Assembly (NCBI GenBank): GCA_003153435.1
Contig: PLYR01000105.1
Coordinates: 1 to 58,293 of the forward strand
DNA: 58,293 nt
DNA from: Bacteroidota bacterium
GTDB taxonomy: Bacteria; Bacteroidota; Bacteroidia; Palsa-965
Direction: 5' to 3'
Shown here in pieces: positions 1,951 through 6,382 of this stretch (the first letter of the stretch is position 1; the number at the start of each line of letters is the position of its first letter). Under the pieces are notes generated by a model that was not told the origin of the DNA, ran no database searches, and was given only the letters and a program-made list of their open reading frames with translations. Position numbers and translations under genes: made by a program.

Positions 1951-2997
1951 TTATTGCCCCTTTGGTCTCAACTTTCTGACCTCTGTACCAGCCATCCACA
2001 ATTCGGATTTCCGAAGGGTGTCCAATTCCTTTTCCAGGCTCTTTCTGTAATCCGGCTTACTTCCTTCCGCAATGACCCTAGCTGCTTCTTTGCCGGAAGC
2101 AACACTTTCATAGAGTTCTTCAAAAAGCGGAGTGGTGGCATCCCTAAAACGGCCTTTCCAGTCTAACGCTCCTCTTTGAGCAGTAACAGAAGTATTGGCA
2201 TACATCCAGTCCATTCCGTTTTCTGCAACCAGGGGCATCAGGCTTTGGGTCAGTTCTTCCACTGTTTCATTGAATGCTTCAGAAGGGGAATGTCCCATCT
2301 TTCGCAATACCTGGTATTGTGCTTCAAATAAGCCGGCAAGAGCGCCCATCAGGATACCTCGTTCCCCGGTGAGGTCGGAATAAACTTCCTTTCGGAAATC
2401 TGTTTCGAAAAGATACCCCGATCCTACCCCTATTCCAAGAGCCAGTACCCGGTCTCTTGCATTGCCAGTGGCATCCTGCCAAATAGCATAGCTGGAATTG
2501 AGCCCTTGTCCTTTCAGAAAAAGGCGCCTCAGGGAGGTTCCAGATCCTTTAGGTGCCACCAGGATTACATCAATATTTTTTGGAGGCACGATCCCGGTTT
2601 GTGCATGATAGGTCACCCCGAAGCCATGTGAAAAGTAAAGTGCTTTACCAGGACTGAGGTGCTTTTTAACCACCGGCCAGGAGGCTATCTGCCCCGCATC
2701 AGAAAGCAGGAATTGAATAATAGTTGCCCTGGAGCAGGCCTCTTCTATCTCAAAAAGCGTTTTTCCTTCCACCCATCCATCCTTCACCGCTCTCTCCCAG
2801 CTCTGGCCACCTTTTCGCTGGCCGACAATTACCCGAAAGCCATTATCTCTCAGATTCATGGATTGCCCGGGCCCTTGAACTCCGTAACCGATCACGGCTA
2901 TAGTTTCATCCTTCAGGGTCTGCAACGCTTTTTTCAAAGGAAATTCCTCCCGCGTAACGACGTTTTCTTTAACACCGCCAAAATTGATTATTGCCAT
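1951..2997 (-). CDS. ilvC: Ketol-acid reductoisomerase (NADP+), Bacteroidota type
   Basis: Second common step of valine and isoleucine synthesis. It isomerises and reduces 2-acetolactate or 2-aceto-2-hydroxybutyrate using NADPH and Mg2+. The 348-aa protein starts MAIINFGG at an ATG at 2997; the frame stays open upstream, but those extra residues overlap the ilvN end and do not look like this family. The nucleotide loop GYGVQGPGQ (37-45) has the Bacteroidota form of the usual GYGSQG. The Mg2+-binding acidic pair sits in the EVYSDLTGERG segment. It is the last gene of ilvE-ilvB-ilvN-ilvC, 31 nt after ilvN, and should be controlled by the operon leader at 6088-6382. Confidence 0.96.
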   Translation of the reverse strand: MAIINFGGVKENVVTREEFPLKKALQTLKDETIAVIGYGVQGPGQSMNLRDNGFRVIVGQRKGGQSWERAVKDGWVEGKTLFEIEEACSRATIIQFLLSDAGQIASWPVVKKHLSPGKALYFSHGFGVTYHAQTGIVPPKNIDVILVAPKGSGTSLRRLFLKGQGLNSSYAIWQDATGNARDRVLALGIGVGSGYLFETDFRKEVYSDLTGERGILMGALAGLFEAQYQVLRKMGHSPSEAFNETVEELTQSLMPLVAENGMDWMYANTSVTAQRGALDWKGRFRDATTPLFEELYESVASGKEAARVIAEGSKPDYRKSLEKELDTLRKSELWMAGTEVRKLRPKGQ

Positions 2998-3028
2998 TTT
3001 ATTTTGTTTTAAATTGTGGATATATAGA

Positions 3029-3334
3029 TTACTGATGAAGACGAGTGTCAGCCAGGAAACGACGCAGTTCCTCGCTGCAGTCATGGCTCTCTTCGTGCAT
3101 GAATACCTTGAGCACCTCCACAAGTTTATGGAGTTGAGCCCTTGCCCGCTCTGCTTTTTCCCGGCTGCTTCGGAGCCTTATATTATACTGATGAACTCCC
3201 GGCACCTCTGACGCATGGATATGCAGTTCGTCAATACAGAGGTTGAGTCGGGCAAGCACCGCTGCAATCCGGCCCAGTAACCCGGGCTGGTTCTCTGTAA
3301 AAATGACAAAAGCGAATTCTTGAAAATCTTCCAT
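3029..3334 (-). CDS. ilvN: Acetolactate synthase small (regulatory) subunit, ACT domain only
   Basis: Regulatory partner of IlvB. In this family the ACT domain binds valine and mediates feedback inhibition. The 101 aa hold one ACT domain (FAFVIFTENQPGLLGRIAAVL near 7-27, then a typical VPGVHQYNIRL strand). The protein stops soon after the LVEVLKVFMHEE helix. Most small subunits of 160-190 aa carry a second C-terminal domain that is absent here. The frame is clean and the gene sits 14 nt after ilvB and 31 nt before ilvC, so this looks like a natural short form and not a frameshift. The identity rests on the ACT signature plus position. Confidence 0.9.
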   Translation of the reverse strand: MEDFQEFAFVIFTENQPGLLGRIAAVLARLNLCIDELHIHASEVPGVHQYNIRLRSSREKAERARAQLHKLVEVLKVFMHEESHDCSEELRRFLADTRLHQ

Positions 3335-3348
3335 TTATTTAGTGCTCA

Positions 3349-5049
3349 TTACTCCGTTAACATCATTTCACTTATGGAGGCACCGGTAGGTACCATCGGG
3401 AATACATTATCCTCCTTTTCAACCATCACTTCGAGCAGGAAGCTTTCCTTGCTTTCAAGCATGGTCTTCAAGCCTTTTTCCAACTTGTTTCGCTCCGTGA
3501 TTCGTGCGGAGCCTATCCCGTAGGCTGCAGCAATAGCAGTAAAATCAGGGTTTTTCATCTCCGTAAAGGAGTATCTTCCTTCAAAGAATAATTCCTGCCA
3601 TTGTCTTACCATACCCAGGAAGCTGTTGTTCAGGATTACAATTTTAACGGCTACACTTGCCTGCACCAACGTACCCAGCTCTTGCATGGTCATCTGGAAT
3701 CCTCCATCACCGATCACAGCGATCACTTCCCGTTCCGGATCCCCTAGTTTTGCTCCTATGGATGCAGGAAGGGCAAAACCCATCGTGCCCAATCCTCCCG
3801 AAGTAACGCTGCTCCTGCGGCTACAGTATTTATAATATCTCGCGGTGACCATTTGATGTTGTCCTACATCTGTGACAACGATAGCCTTGCCCTTTGTCAA
3901 CTCCGATAGCCTTCGTATGGTCTCTGCCATGCCCAGGTCATCGCCTGAACGGTAGAGTTCTTTTTCCATGACCATTGCATATTCCATCTCCCCGAGTTCC
4001 CTGAATTTGGCGAGCCAGTTTTCATGGCTGTTTTGTTTACACAACGGAGCAAGCTCCCGCAATGCAAGCAATGCATCCGCATGGATGGCTACATCCGTTT
4101 TCACATTTTTCCCGATTTCGGAATCATCAATGTCTACATGAATGATCCTGGCCTGGCGGGCATAACGCTTCAGGTCACCTGTAACACGGTCATCAAACCG
4201 CATACCGATAGCGATCAGTACATCACATTCATTGGTGAGGACATTCGCTGCGTAATTTCCATGCATCCCGAGCATACCAGCATAAAGCTTATGCTCAGGA
4301 GGAAAACAAGAAAGGCCCAGCAAGGTACAAGCCACCGGTATTCCTGTTTTTTCAGCCAAGCTCCGTAATTCCTTTTCTGCCCCCGAGAGCAGCACCCCTT
4401 GACCGGCAAGTAAATAAGGCCGCTCCGCTGCATTGATGAGGGCTGCAGCTTCACTGAGCTTCATCATATCCAGAGTTGGTTTGGGGTGATAACTCCGCAC
4501 GTTCCTGCAGGGTACATATTCAAAATCAGTCAACCCTATCTGAGCATCCTTTGTGATGTCAACTAGAACAGGCCCAGGTCGCCCGGTTGAAGCTATATAA
4601 AATGCTTTAGCCATTGCACCGGCAATATCTTCCGCTTTTCTAACCTGTATGTTCCATTTGGTGACCGGCATGGAAATGCCAATGATATCTGTTTCCTGAA
4701 AGGCATCACTGCCCAATAAATGAGAAGCTACCTGCCCGGTGATACATACCAGAGGTGTGGAATCAATCATTGCATCCGTGAGTCCCGTGACCAGATTTGT
4801 TGCGCCGGGCCCGGAGGTAACAAGGCATATTCCTGTTTTCCCGCTGACTCGTGCAAATCCTTGTGCAGCATGAATGGCACCCTGCTCATGCCTGACCAGG
4901 ATATGCCTTATTCGATCTTCATATCGATACAAGAGATCATAAACCGGCATGATGGCTCCTCCGGGGTATCCGAAAAGAAGATCAGCCTGCTCTTCCAGCA
5001 GACAGAGAAGAAGTGCTTCCGCACCTGATATGTTTTTTAAGACTGACAT
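3349..5049 (-). CDS. ilvB: Acetolactate synthase large (catalytic) subunit
   Basis: Thiamine diphosphate enzyme that condenses two pyruvates to 2-acetolactate, or pyruvate with 2-oxobutyrate to 2-aceto-2-hydroxybutyrate. It is the committed step to valine, leucine and isoleucine. At 566 aa the length is normal. The cofactor-activating Glu55 lies in [12 protein letters not shown]. The ThDP/Mg motif starts GDGGFQ at 447 and ends NNSFLGM at 474-480. The N-terminal [13 protein letters not shown] is typical of biosynthetic forms. It lies between ilvE (37 nt upstream) and ilvN (14 nt downstream), so the holoenzyme subunits are co-transcribed. Confidence 0.97.
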
Positions 5050-5086: not shown

Positions 5087-5995
5087 TCAGGAACTGGTGA
5101 TCAGGTGATTTACTTTTTTTTCTCTGACCAGATTCCTGTAAGCATCCTGAATACGTTTTCCAGCAGACTCTGCCCAATTCCCACTGAATTTCTTTCCATT
5201 GACAGATTCAATTCCTGCAATCTCGGCTGCTGTTCCGCAGTAAAATGCAAATTCTGCTTTCATCAGGTCAGTCTCCGTGTATCTTCCCTCCTCCACCTCT
5301 AAGCCTAGTTCATCACAAAGACCTATAACGGTAGCCCGGGTAATTCCTTTCAGGATACTCCCCGAAGCAGGCGTGAATAATTTCTTACCTTTTCCAAAAA
5401 ACAAATTTGCCCCCGGCCCTTCTGCCAGAAAACCTTCATAGTCCAGCAACAGCCCTTCATCAAATCCTTTATCTTTTGCTTCAATGGTTGCCAGAATGGA
5501 ATTGACATAATGCCCGCAAGCCTTTGCTGCGATATGCAAAGATTTAGGATGAGGCCGGCAGAAAGAGGAAATATTCAGTTTCAACAATTGTTCTCCCAGA
5601 TATGCTCCCCACTCCCAGGCACAGATCATCAGATGCACCTCTTTCGGCCGGGTTAACGACATATTCGGGCCACAGAAAACCAGGGGCCGGATATAAGCAT
5701 CCTGAAAACCATTCTTCTGAAGGAGTTTATAACTCAATTGGGTTAATTCCTCTGGGTCTGTTTCAAAAGGGATACCTATTAACTTACACGAGTTAAGCAG
5801 CCGCTCGAAATGTTCCTTGGCTTTGAATATCCTGGCCCCTTTTTCAGTTTGGTAGGAACGAATTCCTTCGAATACTCCATATCCGTAATGCAAGGTCTGT
5901 GCATACAGATTCGATTGAGCCTGAGTGGCTTTCTGAAATTTACCATCCAGAAAGATCCATGTTTTTTCAGTGTAATACATGCTTTTTTTTTCCAT
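5087..5995 (-). CDS. ilvE: Branched-chain amino acid aminotransferase
   Basis: Pyridoxal-phosphate transaminase of fold type IV. It carries out the last step of valine, leucine and isoleucine synthesis with glutamate as donor. At 302 aa it shows the substrate loop [12 protein letters not shown] (38-49), the PLP lysine Lys158 in [11 protein letters not shown], and EGPGANLFF after residue 191. D-amino acid transaminase and aminodeoxychorismate lyase share the fold, but the operon context with ilvBNC settles the call. The start is either Met1 at 5995 or Met6 at 5980; [13 protein letters not shown] is the conserved beginning. It is the first structural gene after the double attenuator leader. Confidence 0.95.
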
Positions 5996-6087
5996 TTTGT
6001 TGTAAATATAATTTATGAAACCCCTTTATAAAATACATAATTCAGAATTAATACAATTCCCAAATACATTTCCGGCACTTATAGTCA

Positions 6088-6123
6088 CAAAAAAAGCCTT
6101 CCCCGGTGGATGAGGAAGGCTTT
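6088..6123 (-). terminator. Attenuator terminator 2, ilv leader
   Basis: On the minus strand AAAGCCTTCC pairs with GGAAGGCTTT (6114-6123 with 6093-6102, 10 bp, 11-nt loop), followed by a seven-T run. It lies about 23 nt after the stop of leader peptide 2 and about 95 nt before ilvE. It would stop transcription before ilvE unless the alternative pairing at 6108-6151 forms. Confidence 0.85.
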
Positions 6124-6151
6124 CTGCAGTGCAATGCGAAGCTCCTCATCC
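6108..6151 (-). promoter_or_regulatory. Antiterminator 2, ilv leader
   Basis: GGATGAGGA on the minus strand (6151-6143) covers the last Gly codon, the TGA stop and three more bases of leader peptide 2. It is perfectly complementary over 9 nt to TCCTCATCC (6116-6108), which is the loop and the inner 3 nt of the 5' arm of terminator 2. The two structures cannot coexist fully. A ribosome that reaches the stop codon would mask the first strand and favour termination. A ribosome stalled on the Ile/Val codons would leave it free. This is an inference from base pairing. Confidence 0.7.
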
Positions 6152-6208
6152 GGGAGGGCGGACGATGATCACAATCACACAAATAATGGTAAGCAGGAAA
6201 TAGTTCAT
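6146..6208 (-). CDS. Leader peptide 2 of the ilv operon (20 aa, Ile/Val/Leu-rich)
   Basis: A 20-codon ORF from ATG at 6208 to TGA at 6146. It encodes MNYF-LL-T-II-C-VIVIIV-RPPG: five Ile, three Val and two Leu, half of all residues, in one cluster at positions 5-16. Composition, size, place between a promoter and ilvE, and an overlapping terminator/antiterminator make it a ribosome-stalling sensor of charged Ile, Val and perhaps Leu tRNA. No Shine-Dalgarno sequence is visible, which is usual in this phylum. It begins about 24 nt downstream of the first attenuator hairpin. The TAATTTTA in that hairpin's T-rich tail resembles a -10-type element, so an independent start of transcription for this module is possible. 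Confidence 0.78.
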   Translation of the reverse strand: MNYFLLTIICVIVIIVRPPG

Positions 6209-6220
6209 ATTCAGGTTCGT

Positions 6221-6256
6221 TAAAATTAAAAAAGCCACTCCTTTTAGGAATGGCTT
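6221..6256 (-). terminator. Attenuator terminator 1, ilv leader
   Basis: On the minus strand AAGCCATTCCT (6256-6246) pairs with AGGAGTGGCTT (6242-6232) over 11 positions with one G-T wobble and a 3-nt loop. A TTTTTTAATTTTA tail follows. It lies 22 nt after the stop of leader peptide 1 and just before leader peptide 2. Confidence 0.85.
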
Positions 6257-6291
6257 CTGATCGTTTGTTGAGTATCGATTATACCATTCCT
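6246..6291 (-). promoter_or_regulatory. Antiterminator 1, ilv leader
   Basis: AGGAATGG on the minus strand (6291-6284), spanning codons 22-25 of leader peptide 1, is perfectly complementary to CCATTCCT (6253-6246), most of the 5' arm of terminator 1. Pairing the two destroys the terminator. A five-base CATTC in codons 3-4 could in turn pair with GAATG of the same segment as a protector stem when the leader is not translated. This is the classic order of parts in amino-acid attenuators, inferred from complementarity only. Confidence 0.7.
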
Positions 6292-6356
6292 GTTGGGCTT
6301 GCGACGCTAATCACAATCACTTGCACATTTTCAGAAATGATAATTGAATGTTTCAT
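6279..6356 (-). CDS. Leader peptide 1 of the ilv operon (25 aa, Ile/Val-rich)
   Basis: A 25-codon ORF from ATG at 6356 to TAA at 6279. It begins MKHS-III-SEN, continues VQVIVISV at positions 11-18 and ends SPTGMV. Five Ile and five Val make up 10 of 25 residues, with no Leu. It starts only about 10-15 nt after the transcription start expected from the TACATTTG element at 6375-6382, so it is the first thing translated on the ilv transcript. The core GTG-ATT-GTG-ATT-AGC-GTC matches leader peptide 2 at 16 of 18 bases. No Shine-Dalgarno sequence is visible. Confidence 0.78.
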   Translation of the reverse strand: MKHSIIISENVQVIVISVASPTGMV

Positions 6357-6374
6357 TTTTTATATATAACTCCA

Positions 6375-6382
6375 CAAATGTA
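6375..6382 (-). promoter_or_regulatory. Promoter (-7 element) of the ilv operon leader
   Basis: TACATTTG on the minus strand matches the Bacteroidota consensus TAnnTTTG exactly. The expected start is near 6368, giving a leader of about 370 nt before ilvE. The -33 TTG element is not clear; TTAG lies 22 nt upstream of the -7 box. Confidence 0.6.

Follow-up and report, generated by a model that had tools for sequence, protein, structure and literature searches.

Textbook leader-peptide attenuation is a single gate, as in the classical attenuators of the E. coli trp, his, thr, leu, and ilvGMEDA operons and of Corynebacterium ilvBNC. The region upstream of ilvE in the window (the whole stretch of 58,293 nucleotides that was analyzed) raises the question of whether two such switches may stand in series before one operon.

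Organization of the region upstream of ilvE

As seen on the minus strand between positions 6086 and 6382, one promoter-like sequence, TACATTTG, is followed by two complete Trp-type leader-peptide attenuators and then by ilvE-ilvB-ilvN-ilvC. The order is TACATTTG (6382-6375), ORF1 (6356-6279), terminator 1 (6257-6228), ORF2 (6208-6146), terminator 2 (6124-6089), and ilvE (5995), with ilvB, ilvN, and ilvC close behind on the same strand. The features, with the evidence for each, are as follows.

6375..6382, minus strand: promoter-like -7 box TACATTTG (TAnnTTTG) before module 1; sequence, recurrence in arrays
6279..6356, minus strand: module 1 leader ORF, MKHSIIISENVQVIVISVASPTGMV and stop; Ile/Val codons within the modelled stall-responsive stretch
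6332..6342, minus strand: module 1 strand 1 (protector), in the Ile codons of the leader, partner of strand 2; prefix folding, 11-bp 1:2 stem
6282..6292, minus strand: module 1 strand 2, at the end of the leader ORF beside the stop codon; prefix folding, 2:3 duplex
6246..6254, minus strand: module 1 strand 3, 5' arm of the terminator, complementary to strand 2; 2:3 duplex
6228..6257, minus strand: module 1 intrinsic terminator (3:4) with T-run; -17.7 kcal/mol, z -6.5
6146..6208, minus strand: module 2 leader ORF, MNYFLLTIICVIVIIVRPPG and stop; sequence, stall model
6159..6180, minus strand: module 2 strand 1 (protector), in GTG ATT GTG ATC ATC GTC CGC; prefix folding
6129..6152, minus strand: module 2 strand 2, overlapping the TGA stop, with core GGATGAGGAG at 6142-6151; prefix folding, duplex, antiterminator covariation
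6108..6117, minus strand: module 2 strand 3, TTCCTCATCC; 2:3 duplex
6089..6124, minus strand: module 2 intrinsic terminator (3:4) with T-run; -22.3 kcal/mol, z -3.8, covariation in homologues
5087..5995, minus strand: ilvE, branched-chain aminotransferase (class IV), first structural gene; Aminotran_4, 5e-51
3349..5049, minus strand: ilvB, acetolactate synthase large subunit; TPP_enzyme N/M/C
3029..3334, minus strand: ilvN, acetolactate synthase small subunit; ACT / ACT_AHAS_ss
1951..3123, minus strand: ilvC, ketol-acid reductoisomerase; KARI_N, KARI_C

The original prediction had placed two full modules here, with leader ATGs 148 nt apart and a perfect complement between each ORF end and its hairpin. 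Every element that it named was found on the minus strand, and the same spacing was measured. The complement is present in both modules, each time with one terminal G-U pair: AGGAATGGT (6291-6283) pairs with GCCATTCCT (6254-6246) in module 1, and GGATGAGGAG (6151-6142) with TTCCTCATCC (6117-6108) in module 2. The terminator 1 hairpin spans 6257-6231 and its T-run 6233-6228; for terminator 2, the corresponding limits are 6124-6092 and 6095-6089. Downstream, the listed TTG start of ilvC overlaps ilvN, and translation probably begins instead at the internal ATG of MAIINFGG.

Of 32 arrays, 27 have the TAnnTTTG motif before module 1, against 2.4 expected, and 7 have it inside the array; past the last leader it was observed in none of them. 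In the window it occurs before module 1 only, with none between the modules; no clear -33 element was seen by eye at TACATTTG. This distribution suggests that a single upstream promoter serves the array.

Predicted folding and independence of the two modules

Growing prefixes of both modules, folded thermodynamically at fixed lengths and thus not describing kinetics, passed through the same succession of structures: 1:2 appeared first, 2:3 replaced it once strand 3 was present, and 3:4 came last. In each module, strand 2 has a further partner upstream, strand 1, which falls among the Ile/Val codons; this interaction was absent from the original prediction and makes the three-state anatomy complete in each. 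Both modules comprise a pathway-codon ORF, an intrinsic terminator before the structural gene, an exclusive antiterminator, and a 1:2 protector.

Both terminators fold far better than shuffled sequences. When the stretch was subjected to dinucleotide shuffling and scanned with a module detector, which demands an ORF, an I/V/L-rich tail, a terminator, and an antiterminator, one module arose in 5 of 1,000 shuffles and two in 0 of 1,000; shuffles of the related loci gave one module in 1 of 768. We also considered whether modules 1 and 2 form one large cross-paired switch. The module 1 2:3 duplex reaches -14.4 kcal/mol, versus -9.3 for module 1 strand 2 with module 2 strand 3, and that of module 2 reaches -19.8 kcal/mol, versus -10.8 for module 2 strand 2 with module 1 strand 3. 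The large switch was rejected, since the own pairs are much stronger, and the weak cross-module pairing indicates two switches rather than one.

Module number in relatives

IlvE searches provided 16 orthologous loci of the class, including that of the window, and 80 named loci, whose leaders were scored by script and by eye. Across the 83 ilvE loci of the IlvE tree, one module was counted in 46, two in 20, and three in 17; these curated counts are partly by-eye calls, and automatic counts vary with stringency, three-module loci numbering 16 in the looser scan versus 2 in the strictest. Loci with several modules include those of Flavobacterium, Aequorivita, and Brumimicrobium, and three modules are present in F. 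psychrophilum (L053), F. limnosediminis (L037), and Brumimicrobium oceani (L059), while Pedobacter, Chitinophaga, and Cyclobacteriaceae carry one. Two or three modules dominate a clade of 38 rows (support 100/98) that takes in the window's genus, Weeksellaceae, and Flavobacteriaceae and has only five single-module rows; two-module loci also occur beyond it (L012, L011, L076, and L087). Both modules look intact at one locus of the window's genus (L004), and in another genome of that genus (G003, locus L003) the second terminator is weak, at -8.3 kcal/mol. The original prediction had been made to depend on conservation in relatives, and both modules indeed recur before ilvE across the class; the covarying hairpins and conserved Ile/Val codons that it called for were likewise found.

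At least 11 changes of module number are needed on the ilvE tree. In some genomes (Myroides, L066), modules 2 and 3 closely copy one another and are of recent origin, with 91% identity between the two versus at most 70% to others. In the third module of L049, the GTGAG stop reads GTTAG, so that the third leader runs on, possibly marking a decaying gate. Two Bacteroidota-type ilvE loci (L054 and L039) lie on contigs labelled as Rhizobium and Limnohabitans MAGs, which are probably binning errors.

Covariation and codon placement

In 30 homologues, the module-2-type terminator was 99.4% paired, with both sides changed at 5 of 11 pairs, and the module-2-type antiterminator, which spans the stop codon of the leader, was 87% paired, with 9 double-change cells. 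The covariation scores of terminator and antiterminator were reached in 0 of 500 shuffles. Because kinship among the rows can inflate such scores, own 2:3 duplexes were also compared with swapped partners; the medians of three sets were -12.0 versus -9.7, -17.2 versus -14.1, and -13.3 versus -8.7, with about a third to a half of individual own duplexes beating 90% of swaps. Since module 1 strand 2 changes register between lineages, per-sequence duplexes replaced column-wise antiterminator covariation there, and the own duplex beat 90% of swapped partners in 8 of 22 module-1 sets.

The position of the control codons was evaluated with a stall model, in which the ribosome footprint is masked codon by codon, taking no account of codon identity, and pairing of strand 3 upstream is scored before strand 4 exists. 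Among 74 leaders, Ile, Val, or Leu occupied 65 to 86% per position over the eight codons leading up to the last permissive position, 25% at the last permissive codon itself, and 2 to 14% over the next five. This placement is the arrangement that the modelled stall mechanism would require. For 27 module-2-type leaders, the median antiterminator probability fell from 0.74 with the footprint on the last I/V/L codon to 0.14 with it on the stop. The contrast between stalled and completed translation was moderate for the window modules (0.76 to 0.40 and 0.74 to 0.38), and a clear modelled contrast was obtained for 27 of 27 module-2-type, 18 of 23 single, and 15 of 24 module-1-type leaders. Synonymous changes exceeded expectation in module-2-type leaders (0.42 versus 0.21) and in Chitinophaga leaders (0.88 versus 0.26), and the bias was weak in module-1-type ORFs (0.33 versus 0.26 expected), lending partial support to translation of the leaders.

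Leaders before other amino-acid genes

Models built from the modules alone were run against 296 genomes, where most of their matches lay before ilvE, ilvB, or ilvD or, unexpectedly, before amino-acid genes of other pathways. The leader codons match the pathway, with Thr/Ile before thrA, His before hisG, Asn before asnA, and Phe before pheA. Exactly one His leader was found at 28 of 30 hisG loci and two at none of the 30, and four genomes (G110, G229, G248, and G297) have two ilv modules and one his module. Two Asn leaders were counted at 2 of 20 asnA loci and one at a further 2. Since hisG leaders are single and some asnA and ilvE loci and one pheA-type locus have several, serial gating is operon specific, rather than genome-wide or an artefact of the detector.

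Upstream of asnA in G280 (L166/L186) and G252 (L132/L193), two tandem Asn-rich leader attenuators stand in series. By eye, a prephenate dehydratase-like gene of the pheA type in G280 (L144) was likewise seen to be preceded by two short ORFs rich in Phe/Tyr, with a terminator-like hairpin after each.

Proposed mechanism and alternative explanations

Sequence and comparison give good support to the predicted anatomy, the single promoter motif, the covariation, the codon placement, and the phylogenetic spread. Very probably, two classical transcription attenuators, each mediated by a ribosome, act in series to control ilvEBNC; the recurrence in the class, the covarying hairpins, the conserved Ile/Val codons, and the single promoter motif leave the serial reading of the original prediction as the best one. 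RNA polymerase would start once, upstream of module 1. With Ile- and Val-tRNA charged, the ribosome would reach the stop of leader 1 and cover strand 2, and terminator 1 would form. Under a shortage of charged Ile- or Val-tRNA, the ribosome would instead stall on the Ile/Val codons and cover strand 1; strand 2 would then capture strand 3, and the polymerase would read on. At module 2, a second ribosome on the second leader would repeat the same test before ilvE. We infer that both gates respond to the same signal and that the output is the product of two pass probabilities, giving low leak and steeper induction, properties for which selection may have kept the second gate.

Whether the two gates share one signal may be questioned, as module-1-type leaders of relatives read Ile and Val and module-2-type leaders lean to Ile. 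Over ten control codons, the former have 41% Ile and 20% Val and the latter 57% Ile and 9% Val, and in Flavobacterium, Aequorivita, and their relatives the control codons of modules 2 and 3 specify almost nothing but Ile (IIIISIII). The signals of the two gates could thus differ in part, module 1 responding to Ile as well as Val and module 2 chiefly to Ile, in which case the array would be an AND gate over amino acids rather than a sharper switch for one signal. We regard this as unlikely, though worth serious consideration: in the window, Ile and Val are heavily mixed in both leaders (VQVIVISV and IICVIVIIV), and the signals therefore overlap here. It is improbable that one gate alone matters and that the other arose by tandem duplication as a neutral or selfish element. 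The repeated changes in module number, the near-copies in Myroides (L066), and the stop lost in L049 would be expected of such duplications; nevertheless, two or three modules persist over the deep 38-row clade, both modules retain covarying switches and control codons, and hisG in the same class, including in the four genomes with two ilv modules, never has two leaders. Least credible, to the point of being nearly discounted, are ordinary terminators beside chance small ORFs, with no attenuation at all. Intrinsic terminators are common, and most of the weak model matches in the window's own genome, which had been considered as further copies and were rejected, are plain terminators, and one is a real single ilvD leader; the shuffle control, the covariation, the codon placement, and the pathway-matched codons contradict this explanation for the ilvE modules.

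Since arrays of two or three modules are kept across the phylum, the textbook switch is apparently deployed serially, an arrangement for which we found no description. Tentatively, at slightly below even confidence, serial leader-peptide attenuation may be a general selected design of Bacteroidota, in which two- and three-gate arrays, also before asnA and pheA, multiply pass probabilities for a tight, steep, or two-input response and histidine-type pathways keep one gate. Natural one-, two-, and three-gate arrays before the same operon make the benefit of serial gating testable in terms of leak, steepness, and two-input logic, with the single-gate his leaders of the same genomes as an internal control.

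Comparison with known systems

The modules share with the classical attenuators their pathway control codons, the 1:2, 2:3, and 3:4 strands, the intrinsic terminator, and the site before a biosynthetic operon. However, the E. coli and Corynebacterium attenuators are single gates, whereas here two stand in series, with up to three in relatives; moreover, strand 2 lies on or directly beside the stop codon of the leader, the phylum is another one, and there is no Rfam match at curated thresholds. In the window region, no Rfam family was matched at curated thresholds or at weak E-values, the best scores being 22.6 bits for Phe_leader and 17.5 for Thr_leader, both versus a threshold of 55, and none was matched in the leaders of ten relatives.

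To our knowledge, leader-peptide attenuation has barely been described in Bacteroidota. Naville and Gautheret (2010; PMC2965389) gave such systems as known in Proteobacteria and Actinobacteria only, to which Firmicutes were then added. In Flavobacterium psychrophilum, leader-peptide attenuation has been noted for amino-acid operons (PMC9723704). That report shares the phylum and the operon type with the present case, and the ilvE locus of the species has three modules in our data; its main text names neither ilv nor a tandem arrangement (PMC9723704). Tandem leader-peptide attenuators for the same amino acid were described in none of the open-access papers searched, a provisional result, and within that literature the original statement on the lack of a described tandem pair for the phylum holds.

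In the Salmonella mgtCBR leader, ATP is the signal for one of two short translated ORFs and proline for the other, their effects on transcription are additive, and the two terminators of a tandem riboswitch are lacking (Lee and Groisman 2012; PMC3641672). Our leader likewise has two short ORFs, both predicted to be translated and to act on transcription, but here each module has its own terminator and both would read branched-chain amino acids. Tandem T-boxes and riboswitches likewise repeat sensors before one operon, sometimes with the same specificity and in up to three copies (PMC12452182); they bind tRNA or ligand directly, whereas a translating ribosome is the predicted sensor here.

Other leaders in the genome of the window

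Leaders of this kind give Bacteroidota easily annotated regulatory RNAs for Ile/Val, His, Thr, Asn, and Phe that Rfam misses. In the window's own genome, ilvD (contig C3, L114) is preceded by a single Ile/Val leader attenuator, MKSMNSSYFIIAVIISSH and stop, whose switch consists of GGGAAAGG / GCCTTTCC..GGAAGGGC and whose leader ATG lies 177 nt before the ilvD ATG. Before hisG (contig C51, L185), a single His leader, MNKNLTLNHHHHLLKTVG and stop, is followed by a terminator-like hairpin. Furthermore, a possible Thr leader, MSICGMLFHIISTTTITSGATLWVTR, was observed before an aspartokinase-type gene (contig C75, L182).
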